From Collinsella ihumii (GTDB lineage: Bacteria; Actinomycetota; Coriobacteriia; Coriobacteriales; Coriobacteriaceae), in NCBI RefSeq assembly GCF_900046475.1, contig NZ_FCOU01000008.1, forward strand, positions 1-64,000: a DNA stretch of 64,000 nt, written 5' to 3'. The translations under genes and the position numbers were made by a program. Positions 6,381-54,103 of the stretch are shown piece by piece (position 1 is the first letter of the stretch; every line of letters begins with the position of its first letter). The notes beneath the pieces were generated by a model. It had not been told where the DNA came from, made no database searches, and worked only from the letters and a program-made list of their open reading frames with translations.

Positions 6381-7829
6381 CTAAAACCTGAAATCGCGAC
6401 GGTTGGAGTTGCGGATGTCCGCGATGTGCTCGGTTGCGATCGCGCGTGTCTTGTCCTTGGGGATGCGCCCCAGCTCTCGCTCGATCAGCGGCCAGCCGAC
6501 CGCGGCGGTCTCGGGAGACGCGTAGTCGACCAGATATTCGGCGAGCGTCATGAGCGCGTTGGGGTGGCAGCAGTTCAGGATCTGCCCGCTCTTGCACAGG
6601 CTCATGAAGCGGTCGCCGGTGCGGCCCTCGCGATAGCACGCCGTGCAGAAGCTCGGGATATGGTCGAGCTGCATGAGCCAGCGCACCACCTCGTCAAGCG
6701 AGCGCTGATCGGACACGTCGAACTGCTCCGAATCGTGCGGACGGACCTCCTCCTCGTATCCGCCCACGCTCGTGCGCGAGCCGCCCGAGATCTGCGAGAT
6801 GCCCAGCTCCAGCGCGCGGGCGCGCACGGCCTCGTTCTCGCGCGTGGAGATGATCATGCCCGTGTAGGGCACCGCGATGCGGATGCACGCGATGATCTTG
6901 GCGAAGATGTCGTCGTCGATGCCGTTGTCGAACTCGTCGGGATCGATATCGTCGGCGCGCTTCAGGCGCGGCACGCTGATGGTGTGCGGCCCGACCCCGT
7001 GCACCGCCTCGAGGTGCTCGGCGTGGCAGAGGAGCCCGGCGAACTCGTAGCGGTATTTCTCCAGGCCGAACAGCACGCCCAGCCCCACGTCGTCGATGCC
7101 GCCGTCCATGGCGCGATCCATCGCCTCGGTATGGTAGTCGTAGTCGTGCTTGGGTCCTGTCGGATGCAGCTCCAGGTAGCTCTTCTTGTCGTAGGTCTCC
7201 TGGAACAGGATGTAAGTGCCGATGCCCGCGTCTTTGAGCATGCGGTACTCCTCCACCGTCGTGGCCGCGATGTTCACGTTCACGCGGCGGATGGCCCCGT
7301 TTTTGTGCTTGATGGAGTAGATGGTGTCGATGCACTCCAGGATGTACTCGATGGGGTTCATCTTGGGATCCTCGCCCGCCTCGATGGCAAGGCGCTTGTG
7401 GCCCATGTCCTGCAGGGCGATGACCTCGCGACGGACCTCGTCCTGCGTGAGCTTCTTGCGCGCGATGTGCTTGTTCTTGGCGTGATACGGGCAGTACGTG
7501 CAGCCGTTCACGCAATAGTTCGACAGGTAGAGCGGCGCGAACATCACGATGCGGTTGCCGTAGTAGGCCAGCTTGATCTGACGCGCGAGCTCGAAGATGC
7601 GCTCGTTCAGCTCGGGGATGTCGCAGGCGAGCAGCACGCTGGCCTCGCGGTGGTTCAGCCCCGCGCACCGGTACCCGTTGCCGGATCGGCGCGGCTTCGC
7701 CTTCTCGAGCAGGCTCTCGATGAGCTCCCTGTTGTGCTTGTTGGCCTCCGCGTAGTCGAGCGTCTCGCGGATCTCACCATCGTTGATGAACTCCTCGGCA
7801 TACCGGGAGCCCAGATCGAACTTCGCCAT
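6381..7829 (-). CDS. hydG: [FeFe]-hydrogenase maturase HydG, radical SAM tyrosine lyase
   Basis: 482 aa. HydG cleaves tyrosine to give the CO and CN ligands of the H-cluster. The radical SAM site is YCVNGCTYCPYH (CX3CX2C, around residue 95). The HydG-specific C-terminal auxiliary cluster motif is CTACYREG followed 22 residues later by C in SLCKSG. This CX2CX22C motif distinguishes HydG from ThiH, which lacks it. The N-terminal MAKFDLGSRYAEEFINDGEI is typical. It lies 78 bases after hydE and 78 before hydF on the same strand. Confidence 0.96.
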   Translation of the reverse strand: MAKFDLGSRYAEEFINDGEIRETLDYAEANKHNRELIESLLEKAKPRRSGNGYRCAGLNHREASVLLACDIPELNERIFELARQIKLAYYGNRIVMFAPLYLSNYCVNGCTYCPYHAKNKHIARKKLTQDEVRREVIALQDMGHKRLAIEAGEDPKMNPIEYILECIDTIYSIKHKNGAIRRVNVNIAATTVEEYRMLKDAGIGTYILFQETYDKKSYLELHPTGPKHDYDYHTEAMDRAMDGGIDDVGLGVLFGLEKYRYEFAGLLCHAEHLEAVHGVGPHTISVPRLKRADDIDPDEFDNGIDDDIFAKIIACIRIAVPYTGMIISTRENEAVRARALELGISQISGGSRTSVGGYEEEVRPHDSEQFDVSDQRSLDEVVRWLMQLDHIPSFCTACYREGRTGDRFMSLCKSGQILNCCHPNALMTLAEYLVDYASPETAAVGWPLIERELGRIPKDKTRAIATEHIADIRNSNRRDFRF

Positions 7830-7880
7830 ATGTTCCTCCCCTTCGCGGTCAGGCGAAAAGCCTTCCCTCTCAGATTCGTG

Positions 7881-7900
7881 CGCGGCAGGCGATTGCCGCG
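7881..7900. terminator. Hairpin between hydE and hydG
   Basis: CGCGGCA pairs with TGCCGCG around a GGCGAT loop, directly after the hydE stop codon. There is no U-run, so it is more likely a processing or mRNA-stability hairpin than a full terminator. Confidence 0.4.
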
Positions 7901-7907
7901 AAAGCGG

Positions 7908-9002
7908 TTAGTCGGCGCTTCCCTCGCGCCCCGCTTCCATGCGACGCTTTGCGTCCCCGCGATCGACCACCACGCGATAGCCGATCGCCTCCATGCGCCG
8001 CGACAGGTCGGCCAGCCCCTCGGCAGCCTCGCTTCCGGCGCACGCCTTATTATCATACAGCTCGTACTTTTTTCGAACGTCGGTCGGCGAAAGGTTGGGC
8101 ATCACGACGTTCGCGCCCGCCTGCATCCCGCGCTCGCGGCCGTGCGGATCGATGGTGCCGAGGGCCGTCGTGGCGGGCAGGAGCAGCTCCGGACCGATCA
8201 GGCGCAGAAGGCTCAGCAGATAGCAGGTCATATCCGCCGTGCCCGCGGGTTCGTGCGCGAACGGCGTCGCATGATGCGGCACGAACGGCCCGATGCCGAC
8301 CATCGCCGGCTGGAACTCCTCGATGAACTTGAGATCCGCCGCGAGCGTGGCCGGCGTCTGGAAGGGAGACCCGACCATGAAGCCGCATCCCACCTGATAC
8401 CCGATGTCCTTGAGGTCGCGCAGGCACGCCATGCGGCGGTCCCATGAGAGGTCCGCCGGATGCAGGCGCGCATAGTGCGCGGGGTCCGCCGTCTCATGAC
8501 GCAGCAGGTAGCGGTCGGCCCCGGCATCGAAGAGCGCCTGGTAGCTGTCGCGATCCCGCTCACCGAGCGAAAGCGTGAGGGCGCAGTCGGGGTGTGCTTG
8601 CTTGATCGATGAGACGATGCCGCACGCGACCTCGTCGGTAAACGCCGCATCCTCCCCGCCCTGCAGCACGAACGTGCGGAACCCGAGCTCGTATCCGGCG
8701 TCACAGCAGGCAAGGATCTCCTCGGCATCCAGGCGGTACCGCTCCGCCATGCGATTCGAACGGCGCAGCCCGCAGTACAGGCAGTCGTTTTTGCAGTAGC
8801 TCGAGATCTCGATCAGCCCGCGGATGTAGACGTCTGTGCCGTAGACCTGGGTGCGCAGCTCCACGGCGCGCTCGGCGGCATAGGCGGCGATCTTTGGCGT
8901 GAACCCCTCGACTAGCTCCTCGTATTCCTTGAGATCCAAGCGATGCTCGACCGCAAGCCGGTCGATGAGCTCGCGGGTCCGCGCGGGAGCGCTATTCCGC
9001 AT
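7908..9002 (-). CDS. hydE: [FeFe]-hydrogenase maturase HydE, radical SAM
   Basis: 364 aa. HydE is the radical SAM enzyme that converts an Fe-cysteine synthon toward the bridging dithiolate and diiron unit of the H-cluster. The cluster-binding site is SSYCKNDCLYCG (CX3CX2C, around residue 69), followed by RRSN and a BATS-type C-terminal half. Its start overlaps the 3' end of the TM1266-like gene by 11 bases, so translation is likely coupled. The last codons (EGSAD, stop) and adjacent bases are identical over 25 nt to the 3' end of the LytTR regulator gene at 26170-26194. Confidence 0.95.
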   Translation of the reverse strand: MRNSAPARTRELIDRLAVEHRLDLKEYEELVEGFTPKIAAYAAERAVELRTQVYGTDVYIRGLIEISSYCKNDCLYCGLRRSNRMAERYRLDAEEILACCDAGYELGFRTFVLQGGEDAAFTDEVACGIVSSIKQAHPDCALTLSLGERDRDSYQALFDAGADRYLLRHETADPAHYARLHPADLSWDRRMACLRDLKDIGYQVGCGFMVGSPFQTPATLAADLKFIEEFQPAMVGIGPFVPHHATPFAHEPAGTADMTCYLLSLLRLIGPELLLPATTALGTIDPHGRERGMQAGANVVMPNLSPTDVRKKYELYDNKACAGSEAAEGLADLSRRMEAIGYRVVVDRGDAKRRMEAGREGSAD

Positions 9003-48925: not shown

Positions 48926-49855
48926 ATGCGCTGCCTCATCATCCATAACCCAGCATCCGGCCCCAGCTCCGACGAGATCTTCGCGTTTTCCCGCGCCCTC
49001 TCGAGGGCGGGCGACGAGATCTGCATGCGCTTCATCGGCGCGGGCATGGAGGCGAGCGACGCGACCGCCGACGCCACGTCGTTCGACCGCATCGTGGTCT
49101 CGGGCGGCGACGGCACCGTATCCAACGTGCTCGACTGCCTGCGCGGAACGCATATCCCGCTGCTGGTGTTCCCCTCGGGCACGGCGAACCTGTTCTTCAA
49201 CAACATCGGCAACGCGCCCGAGGCGGCCGCGCTCGCCGCCGCATGCCGGCGCGGGTGCACGGCGAGCGTCGACATGGGAGAGCTGTTCTGGAAAGACGAG
49301 GCGGGAGACATCCAGCGCCACGGCTTCATCATCATCGCCGGCTCGGGCTTCGACGCCGCGATCATGGAGAAGGCCGCGCCGAGCAAAAACGACATCGGCG
49401 AGATAGCCTATGCGTTCGCGGCGCTCGCCACGCCCGAACCGCAGGTCGCCCACTTCACCATCGAGCACGACGGCCAGATTGACGAGCTCGACGGCATCGG
49501 CTGCATGGTGGGCAACACCGCCGTCATCCAAAACGACATCAACCTGTTCCCCGACTGCCGCATGGACGACGGCCTCATCGACATCACGGTCATCGAGCCG
49601 GCGAAGACCGTCGAGCTGCTGCCGACGCTGCTCGCCGCGGCGCTCGACCCCGTGGGCAAGGGTCTCGGCAGGCCCCAGTTCAAGATGTTCCAGGCCAAGG
49701 AGGCGCGCATCACCTGCAAGCCATCGCTCGGTATGCAGTTCGACGGCGAGCTCATTCCCAACAACTCCGGCGTCTTCGGGGCGCGCGTGCTCCCCCGCTG
49801 CCTGGACATCATCATCGACGACTTCTCGAAACTCAACGCGCGAAACGCCGGGTGA
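48926..49855 (+). CDS. Diacylglycerol/lipid kinase-family protein (YegS/DgkB-like)
   Basis: 309 aa from the ATG at 48926. CLIIHNPASGPSSDEIF at the start, RIVVSGGDGTVSNVLDCL (the GGDGT nucleotide-binding motif, near residue 60), VFPSGTANLFFNNIG (GTxND-like) and HGFIIIAGSGFDA match the DAGK catalytic-domain family. It probably phosphorylates a membrane diacylglycerol or related lipid. The third family segment has GTANLF where many have GTANDF. Confidence 0.87.
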   Translation: MRCLIIHNPASGPSSDEIFAFSRALSRAGDEICMRFIGAGMEASDATADATSFDRIVVSGGDGTVSNVLDCLRGTHIPLLVFPSGTANLFFNNIGNAPEAAALAAACRRGCTASVDMGELFWKDEAGDIQRHGFIIIAGSGFDAAIMEKAAPSKNDIGEIAYAFAALATPEPQVAHFTIEHDGQIDELDGIGCMVGNTAVIQNDINLFPDCRMDDGLIDITVIEPAKTVELLPTLLAAALDPVGKGLGRPQFKMFQAKEARITCKPSLGMQFDGELIPNNSGVFGARVLPRCLDIIIDDFSKLNARNAG

Positions 49856-50004
49856 CGCCCGGAAAGACGCCGCCGAGCAGGCGCACCGTAACATCGCGGA
49901 AATAATCCCCTGACCGGCCTTCCTTGAGGCGCTCCACTGTGCTATAGTGCAGCGCAACACAAACTACCTCGTGATTTCCCGAGTTACCGAAAGGAGCCAC
50001 CAGA

Positions 50005-50073
50005 ATGAAGACCATGAACCTCGCTCTCAACAACTGGTGGTGGCGTGATGCGATGTCGGCTGGTCGACGGTGA
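50005..50073 (+). CDS. Tryptophan-type leader peptide
   Basis: 22 aa, MKTMNLALNNWWWRDAMSAG followed by RR and a stop, with an AAAGGAG ribosome site 9 bases upstream. Three consecutive Trp codons (50035-50043) are the signature of a trp attenuator leader. Ribosome stalling at these codons when charged tRNA-Trp is scarce should decide whether the downstream terminator forms. The genes controlled are an ECF transporter, not trp biosynthesis. Confidence 0.85.
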   Translation: MKTMNLALNNWWWRDAMSAGRR

Positions 50074-50137
50074 GTCCCTCACGCCTCCTTTGTATGTAGC
50101 GCGCAGAAGGCCTCCGGTTTGACCGGGGGCCTTTTTT
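50043..50137 (+). promoter_or_regulatory. Trp attenuator: competing hairpin and intrinsic terminator
   Basis: GGCGTGA at the last Trp codon (50043-50049) can pair with TCACGCC (50079-50085). The terminator is AAGGCCTCCGG (50107-50117) with CCGGGGGCCTT (50123-50133) followed by TTTTTT. This is the layout of ribosome-mediated attenuation. I could not identify the antiterminator pairing with certainty. Confidence 0.75.
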
Positions 50138-50214
50138 CGTTCGCGCCCGCGCCGCCGCACCGCATCACGCGCCTCCACGTTCCACCCCACCTCGCACAGA
50201 ACAGGATGATCACC

Positions 50215-50787
50215 ATGGCACAGTCCCCCAAGTCCTCCCAGGCCCGCTCCGTCAACACCACCGACCACGGCAAGCTCGACATCAAGGCCCTCGTTCTTCT
50301 CGCCGTCCTGCTCGCAGCCGGCTTCATCCTCAACATGACGCTCGGCAAGGCGATCGGCGCCATGTCCGCCGGCATGATCAACCCCGAGTTCATCATCTCG
50401 GCGTTCTGCATCACCATCCTCGTCGTGCGCCCCGGCGTGCTGCAGGCCCTCGTCATCGGTCTGGTCTCCGCCGCCGTCATCCAGCTCACCACGAGCCTCC
50501 CCGGCGCGGACTTCGTGGCCGAGGGCGTGGCCGCCATGCTCATGGCGCTCATCGTCAACGCGGGCATGAAGACCGGCGCCAAGGCGATCATCCCCACCGT
50601 GGGCACCTTCGTCACCACCTTCGTCTCGGGCTTCATCTTCATGCTCATCCGCATGGCCCTCATGCAGTTCGACATGAGCATCGCCGCCGCCATGCTGCCC
50701 GTCGTCGCCCTCACGGCCGTGTTCAACGCCATCCTCGTCGGCGCCCTGTACGTGCCCATCAAGAAGGCCCTGAAGCTCAACGACTAG
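50215..50787 (+). CDS. ECF transporter S component, predicted tryptophan-specific (copy 1)
   Basis: 190 aa from the ATG at 50215 (AGGA 8 bases upstream). Five to six hydrophobic helices, starting ALVLLAVLLAAGFILNMTLG with the AxxxA pattern that contacts EcfT in S components. It binds the substrate in the membrane. Substrate tryptophan is inferred from the WWW leader peptide and attenuator 78 bases before the gene. The second S component at 50986 shares LLAVLLAAG.ILNMTLG.A and VPI-type C-terminal segments, so they are duplicates. Confidence 0.78.
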   Translation: MAQSPKSSQARSVNTTDHGKLDIKALVLLAVLLAAGFILNMTLGKAIGAMSAGMINPEFIISAFCITILVVRPGVLQALVIGLVSAAVIQLTTSLPGADFVAEGVAAMLMALIVNAGMKTGAKAIIPTVGTFVTTFVSGFIFMLIRMALMQFDMSIAAAMLPVVALTAVFNAILVGALYVPIKKALKLND

Positions 50788-50823
50788 GACCGGCCGGCGC
50801 GCATCGCGCGTCCGACCCGGCGG

Positions 50824-50859
50824 CCGATCGCCCCGGGTGCTGCGGCACCCGGGCATCGG
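50824..50859. other. Intercistronic hairpin between the two S components
   Basis: CCGATcgCCCCGGGTGC pairs with GCACCCGGGcATCGG around TGCG. There is no T-run, so it may set relative expression of the two genes by attenuation or mRNA processing. Confidence 0.5.
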
Positions 50860-50985
50860 AAGAAGCATCAGCTCGAACATCAATCAATCGCACCACACGC
50901 TCGCGAACGCGGAACGTGAACGACTCGCACGTCTTCCGGCTCGCTCCCTGACGCATACCCATTTCCCTTGAGAAAGGATTCCATC

Positions 50986-51519
50986 ATGACCCAGCGCACC
51001 GTCACCGCTCGCTCCGGCGCCCTCGACATCTCCGCCCTCATCCTGCTCGCCGTGCTGCTCGCGGCAGGCCTCATCCTCAACATGACCCTCGGCAACGCGC
51101 TCGCCATGACCGGCATCAAGCCCCAGTTCATCATCGCCGCCTACGCGCTGGCGATCCTGCTCACGCGCGGCGGGTTCGCGCAGGCCGCCGTCTTCGGCCT
51201 CATCTCCGCCGCCGTCATCCAGATCAACACGTCCATTCCCGGCCTCAACTTCGCGACCGAGGTCGCCGGCGCCCTCACCATGGCGGCGCTCGTGCGCAGC
51301 GACATCCGCATCGCCGGGCGCTCCGTCACGCCGCTGGTCGCCGCCTTCGCGGCCACCCTCGTCAGCGGCGCGCTGTTCGCGGTGGCGGGCACCGTGCTTT
51401 CGGGCTTCGCCATCGAGGCCGCCCTCGTCAAGGTGCCGATCGTCGCGGGCACCGCGGTCTTCAACGCCATCGTGGTCCAGGCGCTGTATCTGCCCCTGCG
51501 CGCGGCCCGCAGGCAGTAA
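50986..51519 (+). CDS. ECF transporter S component (copy 2)
   Basis: 177 aa from the ATG at 50986, with GAAAGGA upstream. ALILLAVLLAAGLILNMTLG near residue 20 mirrors copy 1, followed by IKPQFIIAAYALAILL and several more helices, ending LVKVPIVAGTAVFNAIVVQALYLPL. Substrate may be tryptophan or a related indole; the two copies may have diverged in specificity. Followed 87 bases later by the ATPase gene. Confidence 0.75.
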   Translation: MTQRTVTARSGALDISALILLAVLLAAGLILNMTLGNALAMTGIKPQFIIAAYALAILLTRGGFAQAAVFGLISAAVIQINTSIPGLNFATEVAGALTMAALVRSDIRIAGRSVTPLVAAFAATLVSGALFAVAGTVLSGFAIEAALVKVPIVAGTAVFNAIVVQALYLPLRAARRQ

Positions 51520-51606
51520 CACTCGGGTATGATGGAGCGGGCGCCCCGTGCGCCCGCGTTTCCACGCGCCGCGCCGGCAGGCGCACATATCGACGGAAAG
51601 GCACTC

Positions 51607-53364
51607 ATGTCAGCAATCATCGAGATGGAAGGCGTCTCGTTCAGTTACGGTTCGGATGCCGCCCACGCCCTCGACAACGTCTCGCTCACGGTCAACGAGG
51701 GGGACTTCATCGGCATCATCGGCCCCTCGGGCGCCGGCAAGTCGACCCTTGCCGCCTGCCTGTCAGGGGCCATCCCGCACCACTACACCGGCGAGCTGTT
51801 CGGCACCACGGTCGTCGACGGCGCGGACACCTGCGACATCACGCTGACCGACATCTCGCGCATCGTGGGATCGGTCAACCAGGACATCGACGCGCAGATG
51901 GTCGCCTCGGTCGTCGAGGACGAGCTGCTCTTCGGCCTCGAGAACTTCGGCGTGCCCCATGACGAGATCGAGGGCCGCATCGAGCGCACGCTTGCCACCG
52001 TCGGTATCTCCGAGCTGCGCCATCGCGAGATCGCCACGCTGTCGGGCGGCCAGAAGCAGAAGGTCGCCATCGCCGCGATCCTGGCCCTCGAGCCCCGCGT
52101 GCTCGTGCTCGACGAGCCCACGGCGGCGCTCGACCCGGTCAGCTCGCGCATCGTCTTCGAGACGCTCGCCGACATCAACCGCCGCCTCGGCGTCACGGTC
52201 ATCGTCATCGAGCAGAAGGTCGCCCTGCTCTCCACCTACTGCAGCCGCATCCTCGTCATGGACCACGGCTCCATCGCGCTCACGGGCACGCCGCACGAGG
52301 TCTTCGGACACAGCGGCAACCTGCGCGCCATCGGCGTCGACAGCCCGCGCACCGTCCGCATCTCCAACAGCCTCGTCCGCGACGGCCTGACCGACCGAAG
52401 CGAGCCGTGCCTGAACGTGGACGAGGCCTATGGGCTCATCCGCGACATCCTGGCCGGCGTCGAGGGCATCGCGGACACCGCGGCCGACGCTCCCGAGCCC
52501 TCGCCCCACACGCCCGCGCGACCGCATGCGGACGGTACCGCCCCCATCCTCACCCTCGAGCACGTCGGGTTCACCTATCCCGGCGGCGGCGCCAGCGTGG
52601 AAGACCTCTCCATGACGGTCTATCCCGGGGAGCTCGTGGGCATCGTCGGCCAGAACGGCGCCGGCAAGACCACGCTCACCAAGCTGCTGAACGGCCTGCT
52701 CAAGCCGAGCGCCGGCACCGTGCGCGTCGCCGGCCTCGATACGCGCGAGACCCCGGTGTCGACCATCGCCGCCCACGTCGCCACGCTGTTCCAGAACCCC
52801 GACCGGCAGATCTGCAAGAACACGGTCATCGACGAGGTCGCCTTCGGACTCGAGCTCACCGGCGTCGACGGCGCCGAGGCGCGCGAGCGGGCCCGCGCGG
52901 TCATCAAGCGCTTCGGCCTGCCCGCCACCGAGGCGCCCTTCTCGCTGTCGCGCGGTCAGCGCCAGATGGTGGCGCTCGCGGGCGTCGTGGTCATGGAACC
53001 CGAGATCGTGCTGCTCGACGAGCCCACGAGCGGCCTGGACTACCGCGAGTGCATGACCGTCATGGAGACCGTGAGCGACATGGCCGACCATGGCTGCGCC
53101 GTCATCATGGTCTGCCACGACATGGAGGTCGTCAGCGACTTCGCCGAGCGCATCGTCGTCATGGCGAACGGGCGCATCCTCGGCCGCGGCCCGGCGGCCC
53201 CCCTGTTCGCCGACCGCGCCCTCATGGACCAGGCGAGCGTCACGCCGCCGCAGGTCATCGACCTCTCCGAACGCCTGGCGCGCGACGTCTCGCCCGCGTT
53301 CGCCCACATCACCGAAGTCAGCGACATCGTGCGCACCGTAAAGGAGCTGATGGGCCGTGCTTAA
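51607..53364 (+). CDS. ECF transporter double ATPase (EcfA1-EcfA2 fusion)
   Basis: 585 aa with two ABC ATPase domains in one chain. Domain one: GPSGAGKSTLAACL, TLSGGQKQKVAIAAILAL, VLVLDEPTAALDPV. Domain two: GQNGAGKTTLTKLLNG, SLSRGQRQMVALAGV (signature LSRGQ instead of LSGGQ), IVLLDEPTSGLDY. A linker rich in Pro/Ala joins them. It powers the energy-coupling module with EcfT. Start at 51607 with GAAAGG upstream. Confidence 0.92.
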   Translation: MSAIIEMEGVSFSYGSDAAHALDNVSLTVNEGDFIGIIGPSGAGKSTLAACLSGAIPHHYTGELFGTTVVDGADTCDITLTDISRIVGSVNQDIDAQMVASVVEDELLFGLENFGVPHDEIEGRIERTLATVGISELRHREIATLSGGQKQKVAIAAILALEPRVLVLDEPTAALDPVSSRIVFETLADINRRLGVTVIVIEQKVALLSTYCSRILVMDHGSIALTGTPHEVFGHSGNLRAIGVDSPRTVRISNSLVRDGLTDRSEPCLNVDEAYGLIRDILAGVEGIADTAADAPEPSPHTPARPHADGTAPILTLEHVGFTYPGGGASVEDLSMTVYPGELVGIVGQNGAGKTTLTKLLNGLLKPSAGTVRVAGLDTRETPVSTIAAHVATLFQNPDRQICKNTVIDEVAFGLELTGVDGAEARERARAVIKRFGLPATEAPFSLSRGQRQMVALAGVVVMEPEIVLLDEPTSGLDYRECMTVMETVSDMADHGCAVIMVCHDMEVVSDFAERIVVMANGRILGRGPAAPLFADRALMDQASVTPPQVIDLSERLARDVSPAFAHITEVSDIVRTVKELMGRA

Positions 53365-54103
53365 CGTCATCGATTACGTCCCCGGCGACACCCTGCTGCA
53401 TCGCCTGAACCCCGTGACCAAGCTCGCGCTCGCCGCGGCCATCATCGCGGCGACGTTCTTGTCCGACGGCTATGCCGCGCTCGTGGGCCTGCTCGTGCTC
53501 ACGCTGGCGCTCGCCGCCTATGCGGGCGTGTTCGGGAGGCTCGCGCGCCTGCTCAAGCTGCTCGTGCCCGTCGCGCTCATCATGCTCGTGCTCCAGCTCG
53601 TGTTCGTGCGCTCCGGCACCGCGCTGCTCGCCTTCGTGACCGACGAGGGTCTCATCACCGGCGGCAAGGCCTGCCTGCGCCTGCTCGGCGTGGCGCTGCC
53701 GCTCGTGCTGATGCTCATGGTCACCAAGCTCACCGACCTCGCTAACGCGTGCGTCGAGAAGCTGCACATCCCCTACAAGTACGCGTTCACCTTCACGACG
53801 GCGCTGCGCTTCGTGCCGGTGTTCTCGCAGGAGATGAACGCCATCATGGAGGCCCAGACGGCGCGCGGCGTGGAATACGACACCAACAACCCCTTCAAGA
53901 AGATGCAGCTCATGCTTCCGCTGTGCATCCCGCTGCTCATCTCGAGCGTGAGCAAGACCGACGCGACGGCCCTTGCCGCCGAGCAGCGCGGCTTCTATCT
54001 GCGCACGCGCGAGAGCAGCTACCGGCGCTATCCGTTCTCCGCGGCGGACTTCGCGGCCTTCGCCCTGTGCATCGCTCTCATCGCCCTCGGCATCGTGCTG
54101 TAG
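53357..54103 (+). CDS. ecfT: ECF transporter transmembrane component EcfT
   Basis: 248 aa, GTG start overlapping the ATPase gene by 8 bases. About five membrane helices (LALAAAIIAATFL, LLKLLVPVALIMLVLQLVF and others). Two ARG-type coupling motifs, EAQTARGVEYD and AAEQRGFYLR, contact the ATPases. DYVPGDTLLHRLNPVTKL at the N-terminus is typical. It couples ATP hydrolysis to one or both S components. Confidence 0.93.
   Translation: MLNVIDYVPGDTLLHRLNPVTKLALAAAIIAATFLSDGYAALVGLLVLTLALAAYAGVFGRLARLLKLLVPVALIMLVLQLVFVRSGTALLAFVTDEGLITGGKACLRLLGVALPLVLMLMVTKLTDLANACVEKLHIPYKYAFTFTTALRFVPVFSQEMNAIMEAQTARGVEYDTNNPFKKMQLMLPLCIPLLISSVSKTDATALAAEQRGFYLRTRESSYRRYPFSAADFAAFALCIALIALGIVL

Follow-up and report, generated by a model that had tools for sequence, protein, structure and literature searches.

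The upstream region of an energy-coupling factor (ECF) transporter operon in Collinsella ihumii very probably holds a ribosome-mediated transcription attenuator of the trpL type that controls an ECF-type tryptophan importer. Our analysis concerned the first 64,000 nucleotides (nt) of contig NZ_FCOU01000008.1 (assembly GCF_900046475.1), hereafter the window, where a short leader open reading frame (ORF) with three consecutive UGG (Trp) codons at 50035-50043 is followed by an intrinsic terminator and by genes for two substrate-binding (S) components, a fused EcfA1-EcfA2 ATPase and the transmembrane component EcfT (Table 1). Of the parts of a tryptophan-type attenuator, a leader ORF with a ribosome site and a run of cognate codons, a terminator ahead of the first structural gene and a protective stem were found. 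A sequence-only reading of this region had proposed tryptophan uptake under attenuator control. The 22-residue leader, three Trp codons and ribosome site that it described are real and lie where it had placed them (50005-50073), as do the two S components, EcfA1A2 and EcfT, which were identified here by domain matches, and its interpretation is well supported by the sequence evidence. Stalling, read-through and the substrate are what we infer from the sequence, and most likely the leader would act as a decoy that switches the importer on when tryptophan is short.

Conservation of the leader peptide

Named genomes were scanned with an alignment of S1, and the best 80 of 101 relatives were kept; these came from Collinsella, Enorma, Olsenella, Tractidigestivibacter, Thermophilibacter, Parafannyhessea and Slackia, together with further Coriobacteriaceae and Atopobiaceae, and the named loci nearest to the window belong for the most part to Collinsella. 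Two loci whose contigs end before the leader were left out (L015 and L059), the second of them one of the 80, leaving 79 named loci with upstream sequence. All 79 carried a short ATG-initiated ORF with WW or WWW behind a purine-rich site, and 78 of them had WWW together with a ribosome site upstream of S1; the remaining locus must be L102 from Collinsella provencensis, which has a WW leader. A WW(W) leader was also present at five further loci of the same genus (L043-L047). The sequence-only reading had named lack of conservation of the WWW peptide in relatives with the operon as a result that would overturn it, and the comparison came out in its favour. No WWW leader with a ribosome site arose when these upstream sequences were shuffled by mononucleotide (0 of 3950) or when both strands of 600-nt windows elsewhere in these loci were examined (0 of 4538). 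The peptide varies freely in its N-terminal half, and what is kept is the run of Trp residues and, at the RNA level, the final codons.

A covariance model of the leader, which finds these sites by construction as it was built from relatives of the same operon, placed exactly one strong site in each of 43/43 genomes of the genus (E ≤4.8e-11; next best 1.2e-5) and, as counted from the table of matches, a site with E ≤3e-7 in 68 of 197 genomes of the class. Weak second matches at L177, L180, L183 and L187 were rejected, as they have no W-rich ORF and look like ordinary terminators, and those at L285 and L286 had no match to the operon, trpB2 or symporter queries. Two other searches were set aside: a broad pattern of Shine-Dalgarno site, ATG and WWW gave many chance matches, as a reversed control showed, and four members (L196, L201, L203 and L211) of a recurring FWS[AG]WWW class correspond to the N-terminus of a membrane-like protein.

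A promoter probably lies between the upstream DAGK/YegS gene and the leader. Of 86 leaders, 53 have the extended motif TGnTA[TC][AT][AG]T at ≤110 nt 5' of their ATG, in comparison to 8 of 2000 windows drawn at random from these loci, and a generic promoter scan at the leader called no promoter. In the minimum free energy (MFE) structure of the window, the segment GCCACCAG 5' of the start codon (49996-50003) was paired with the Trp codons CUGGUGGUGGC (50034-50044), a pairing that could couple initiation to the leader. This pairing was not used for the model and its sequence is not kept in L017.

RNA elements of the attenuator

The fold of 49990-50145 was more stable than those of shuffled sequences (z = -2.95), and a hairpin with a T-rich tail was found in 86/86 leaders. 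A simple terminator scanner did not flag the terminator at 50107-50137, plain though it is in the sequence and in the fold. Two further pairings were examined, namely stem 1, the protective stem, and the antiterminator formed between R2 and R3 (Table 1). The sequence-only reading had described a competing stem and a strong terminator, and both stand, with terminator, antiterminator and protective stem conserved with covariation; the refinement is that the competitor is an 11-nt segment that closes the leader ORF and pairs with the upper part of the terminator.

Covariation was measured against shuffles and permutations that ignore the relatedness of the loci, which is itself a point against the reading. 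In these controls, the covariation score of stem 1 (86.6% of cells paired) was reached by 0/500 shuffles and its number of pair types by 58/500, and its cognate duplexes averaged -14.5 kcal/mol in comparison to -13.6 kcal/mol for permuted ones (5e-5; 60 distinct). For R2:R3, the covariation score was reached by 0/500 shuffles and the share of paired cells by 1/500, with cognate duplexes at a mean of -14.3 versus -13.7 kcal/mol when permuted (1e-4; 38 distinct combinations); several of its pairs are invariant and hence uninformative on covariation. The sequence GGUC lies within the last 15 nt of all 86 leaders. The constraint appears to be on the RNA, because the Gly codon of R2 is GGU in all 86 leaders though the residue after it varies (R, Q or L).

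Table 1. Positions of the attenuator elements and ECF genes within the window.
Feature	Coordinates	Strand	Basis or remark
Probable -10 element TATAGT, extended (TGTGCTATAGT), of leader promoter	49943..49948	+	motif enrichment
Leader ribosome binding site AAAGGAG	49990..49996	+	sequence; similar purine-rich sites before leaders of relatives
Leader ORF MKTMNLALNNWWWRDAMSAGRR, 22 codons	50005..50073	+	sequence; WW(W) kept in relatives
Stem 1, 5' arm GGCGUGA	50042..50048	+	starts inside last Trp codon; covariation
R2, antiterminator 5' strand CUGGUCGACGG, 11 nt, last leader codons just before stop	50060..50070	+	
Stem 1, 3' arm UCACGCC	50079..50085	+	just after leader stop; fold, covariation
Intrinsic terminator	50107..50137	+	hairpin (AAGGCCUCCGG UUUG ACCGGGGGCCUUUUUU) and T-run in sequence and MFE structure
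R3, antiterminator 3' strand CCGGUUUGACCGG	50114..50126	+	apical 5' arm, loop and 3' arm of terminator
S1, TrpP-like ECF substrate-binding component, 190 amino acids (aa)	50215..50787	+	PF17099 E 2.2e-5, 24.7 bits; predicted S-component-like fold
S2, second TrpP-like S component, 177 aa	50986..51519	+	PF17099 E 0.0011, 19.2 bits
Fused EcfA1-EcfA2 ATPase, 585 aa, two ABC domains	51607..53364	+	TIGR04520 and TIGR04521 above cut-off
EcfT transmembrane component, 248 aa	53357..54103	+	CbiQ PF02361 E 2.1e-27

Folding of the nascent RNA and proposed mechanism

The nascent RNA of the window was folded to 50124, 50126 and 50128 with a ribosome on the first Trp codon, on the third, at the stop codon or absent. 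For RNA reaching 50124 or 50126, the R2 region and R3 were expected to share 5.8-7.9 pairs when a ribosome stood on the first or third Trp codon, in comparison to 0 with the ribosome at the stop codon and ≤0.02 with no ribosome, the latter state having stem 1 formed (6.7-6.9 pairs). In these predictions the three-state model works on nascent RNA and not at equilibrium, and the antiterminator that uses the terminator's strands and excludes it was seen solely in the nascent RNA, in part with its register shifted.

Under the proposed mechanism, a ribosome would stall on UGGUGGUGG when charged tRNA-Trp is scarce, covering the 5' arm of stem 1 and leaving R2 free to pair with R3 at the terminator top, and RNA polymerase would then continue into S1-S2-EcfA1A2-EcfT. 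With enough tryptophan, the ribosome would instead reach the stop codon directly behind R2 and mask R2, with formation of the terminator, and in the absence of translation stem 1 would close around R2 and termination would be the default. The S1 protein (and S2) would bind tryptophan, and the EcfAAT module would drive its uptake.

Several of the folding predictions tell against this mechanism. The expected R2:R3 register was the MFE structure only for a ribosome on the first Trp codon at 50124; on the third codon a shifted register was preferred at 50124, and at 50126 the MFE structure was already the terminator top. The unfinished RNA was predicted to pair with the upstream leader instead when the ribosome stood at the stop codon. 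By 50128, R2:R3 amounted to ≤0.2 pairs in every state, and the terminator won in every state when RNA to 50131 or 50145 was folded at equilibrium; the switch must therefore be kinetic, as attenuator switches usually are. Little room is left for such a switch, as R3 emerges only shortly before the U-tract.

Tryptophan as the regulatory signal

A comparison of Rfam families with the window leader detected no T-box (RF00230) even at E 10 and no other family beyond chance-level matches. Homologous operons of other lineages supplied 29 further upstream stretches, of which 21 had a T-box core, five a W-rich leader and three neither, one of these three being shortened by a contig end. The Rfam scan of 18 of the 29 stretches gave 16 T-boxes, below the gathering score and with E values of 7.9e-17 to 4.1e-10. 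With L041 and L042 these make 18 T-boxes, and the specifier column of their alignment, chosen on L042, read UGG in 18/18; in cmscan alignments of ten of the 18 to the T-box model, UGG was where it should be or roughly one base away. T-boxes with a Trp specifier take the place of the leader on homologous operons in other lineages, and tryptophan as the signal is backed by this replacement. At L041 (G043), a raiA RNA (169 bits) was also observed at 252-489 on the plus strand, beyond the 3' end of the ECF operon and on the strand opposite to it.

Tryptophan-rich leaders were also found at other genes, which is a further point in favour of tryptophan. At L179, L184 and L185 a W-rich leader and terminator precede a stand-alone trpB2, with a second class of peptide (AAWWWN[NK]...SD*), and these leaders are probably the indole-salvage branch of the same regulon. 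The G040 genome has a W-rich leader followed by trpB2 and then by an S-A1 fusion, and at L143 (138-1634, minus strand) an S component fused to EcfA1 forms one ORF of 498 aa directly downstream of trpB2. A WWW leader with terminator lies directly before a gene of the SNF/NSS family of sodium symporters at L178 (two leaders), L283 and L284, and among genomes with symporter leaders no ECF S gene was found in G199 and G228.

Tryptophan as the probable cargo

Tryptophan is the probable cargo, backed by similarity of the S proteins to TrpP and by loss of tryptophan synthesis. The TrpP profile PF17099 matched 17 of 22 S homologues at E up to 0.1 (best 1.8e-11). In the window genome (G000; 2.84 Mb, 98.4% complete) there was no match to indole-3-glycerol phosphate synthase (IGPS, trpC), which was also missing from 33 of 34 same-genus genomes, two of the 34 being <90% complete. 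TrpB above the cut-off was likewise absent from the window genome, where the best match was a weak 29.7 bits, and from 33 of 34 congeners, and only G001 had both trpC and trpB. From these searches, the host apparently cannot make tryptophan. In the class sample, the S family occurred in 92 of 197 genomes, IGPS in 68 of 197 and both in 7, a split that is confounded by phylogeny as the S family is found only within the window's order in this sample. The G001 genome has a UGG T-box before a trpE-like gene (L141, 11327-11585, minus strand), and its ECF operon (L036) has a WWW leader.

Organization of the ECF operon

The window operon has the make-up of an ECF transporter, in that it encodes a small S protein of the membrane together with EcfT and the EcfA ATPases, and the gene order S1-(S2)-A1A2-T holds at every locus whose contig extends far enough. 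The S2 gene is an optional duplicate, found as a separate gene at 19 of 80 loci, and in the window its product is 47% identical to S1. The script placed A1 to A2 in one open frame at 79 of 80 loci; L054 and L109 end before A2, and the fused frame is therefore counted in 77 of 78 complete loci. At L128 ('bacterium OL-1', 7325-8298), the EcfA2 half was recovered as two tblastn pieces rather than one frame, perhaps through a frameshift or sequencing error. The sequence-only reading had spoken of a dedicated energising module; that claim rests on operon linkage, since the EcfT gene is one of five CbiQ-family genes in the window genome. The 198-nt gap between S1 and S2 contains a GC-rich perfect hairpin without a T-run (50832-50853), which may set the S1:S2 ratio.

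The predicted structure of S1 is helical, with a predicted local distance difference test value (pLDDT) of 87.9 and a predicted template modelling score (pTM) of 0.81. Nine of its top ten Foldseek matches are titled ECF S components or ECF transporters, and 4huq_S is titled only transporter. An AxxxA motif in helix 1 of S components is described in the consulted text of PMC11109136, and S1 carries A30-x-x-x-A34, in which A34 is invariant and A30 is kept at ≥90%, so that both the predicted S-component fold and the helix 1 motif are present. The S profile had no sequence relatives in the PDB at E 1, and the S proteins of this conserved operon have no NCBIfam name.

Weighing of the evidence

Further observations stand on the opposing side of the balance. 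The leader has only WW in L102 and WAW in L181, and G204 and G210, which have IGPS, show no W-rich leader ORF before the S gene. Stem 1 is weak in L102, L123, L046 and L043, the number of R2:R3 pairs changed on both sides is ordinary (reached by 93/500 shuffles), and the base that follows GGUC has a non-pairing partner opposite it in 18 of 86 leaders. For the cargo, the PF17099 scores of S1 (24.7 bits) and S2 (19.2 bits) lie below the cut-off of 27.2, five of the 22 S homologues had no TrpP match, and the profile could be detecting the general S fold; the Foldseek matches of S1 are weak as well (E 0.043 to 1.6, best 0.043, TM about 0.5-0.6). Upstream of the S gene in G204 and G210 (L270 and L271), a terminator with an R3-like apex was observed to be kept.

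Alternatively, the attenuator may sense Trp-tRNA while the importer carries a related compound such as indole, an indole derivative or a Trp dipeptide, or the substrates of S1 and S2 may differ. We regard this as unlikely, albeit the most credible of the alternatives. It draws on the low PF17099 scores, on the optional nature of S2 and its divergence from S1, on the WWW leaders of trpB2 standing alone elsewhere and on the trpB2-like gene, of a family that uses indole, that lies between the WWW leader and the S gene in G040. It is opposed by the description of B. subtilis TrpP as the tryptophan transporter of that species, in the part of PMC13170310 consulted, and by the absence of an IGPS match and of more than a weak TrpB match in the window genome, which makes conversion of indole to tryptophan by IGPS/TrpB unlikely.

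It is considerably less probable, and in our view very unlikely, that the Trp run serves as a stall site for another cue such as ribosome-targeting drugs or slow translation. Leader peptides with attenuators that respond to drugs are known, as the consulted parts of PMC4191407 and PMC10314930 describe, but the conservation of the Trp codons amid a variable N-terminal half, the replacement of the leader by UGG T-boxes and the other genes found behind such leaders (trpB2 and the SNF symporter, both plausible for Trp) count against this reading. That the hairpin simply terminates the DAGK/YegS gene, which is on the same strand and ends at 49855, with an ORF arising by chance, is hardly credible given that leader and RNA elements are kept across genera, that none of the control windows had such a leader and that a probable promoter lies in between. 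A tryptophan-sensing attenuator on a tryptophan importer is preferred to all three.

Relation to known systems

Ribosome-mediated attenuation is the mode of control of the trp operon through trpL. A his-type attenuator of the same kind is described in the portion of PMC9413887 consulted. The window system resembles both in having a short leader with a run of cognate codons, alternative terminator and antiterminator structures and a protective stem in the untranslated state. It differs in standing before genes for uptake in a host that lacks the biosynthetic pathway, and in an antiterminator strand that lies inside the leader ORF beside the stop codon and pairs with the loop of the terminator and the inner part of both its arms. 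Uptake genes under a Trp T-box include trpX of Streptococcus suis (PMC9382623, in part), and the C. difficile gene CD1988 for a putative tryptophan transport protein is entered in what appears to be a T-box table (PMC11477304, in part). As in those cases, control of tryptophan uptake would depend on Trp-tRNA, whereas the window system would read charging through the translating ribosome and a T-box binds the tRNA directly.

The S protein is related to TrpP/YhaG of Bacillus subtilis (PF17099). A trpP mutant of this species was tested among S-protein mutants, with tryptophan named as an ECF cargo, in the consulted text of PMC11487621, and TrpP is regulated by TRAP according to the excerpt of PMC13170310. 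In contrast to TrpP under TRAP, the window S gene lies in an operon with its own EcfAAT. The window leader and tnaC share a place upstream of tryptophan uptake genes, and their logic is opposite. In tnaC-tnaAB a leader peptide controls a tryptophan permease gene, and tnaC induces on excess Trp.

Within the open-licence literature, outside which most subscription papers fall, no description of this attenuator was found, and none of an ECF operon for tryptophan in Coriobacteriales. That TrpP counts among the ECF S proteins of Bacillus, that Trp T-boxes can control uptake genes and that leader peptides can act as attenuators is known already. The novelty lies in the placing of a leader-peptide attenuator before a tryptophan-type ECF operon, for uptake and not synthesis, in a compact antiterminator inside the leader ORF and in the T-boxes found in place of the attenuator in other lineages.

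Implications

On balance, though with clearly less assurance than for the attenuator itself, we favour a wider interpretation in which Trp-auxotrophic gut Coriobacteriales would have an acquisition regulon, made up of a TrpP-ECF importer that has a module of its own, indole salvage by trpB2 and a sodium symporter, on one portable WWW-leader attenuator. Its antiterminator, which the leader's final codons would encode and a terminating ribosome would mask, would clamp the terminator apex, and repeated exchange with UGG T-boxes would provide two readers of tRNA-Trp charging for one gene set. The Collinsella genomes examined are mostly without tryptophan synthesis, and for Collinsella, Olsenella and their relatives the finding offers a system of tryptophan uptake, with its sensor, that can be tested, as well as a proposed substrate for a conserved ECF operon. 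Attenuator and T-box on homologous operons form a clean natural comparison of two sensors of tRNA charging. The carriers of the leader include Tractidigestivibacter scatoligenes (L076), the former Olsenella scatoligenes. Production of skatole is reported for Olsenella scatoligenes in the consulted part of PMC12613830, and the switch may influence the amount of tryptophan that such bacteria take from the gut.

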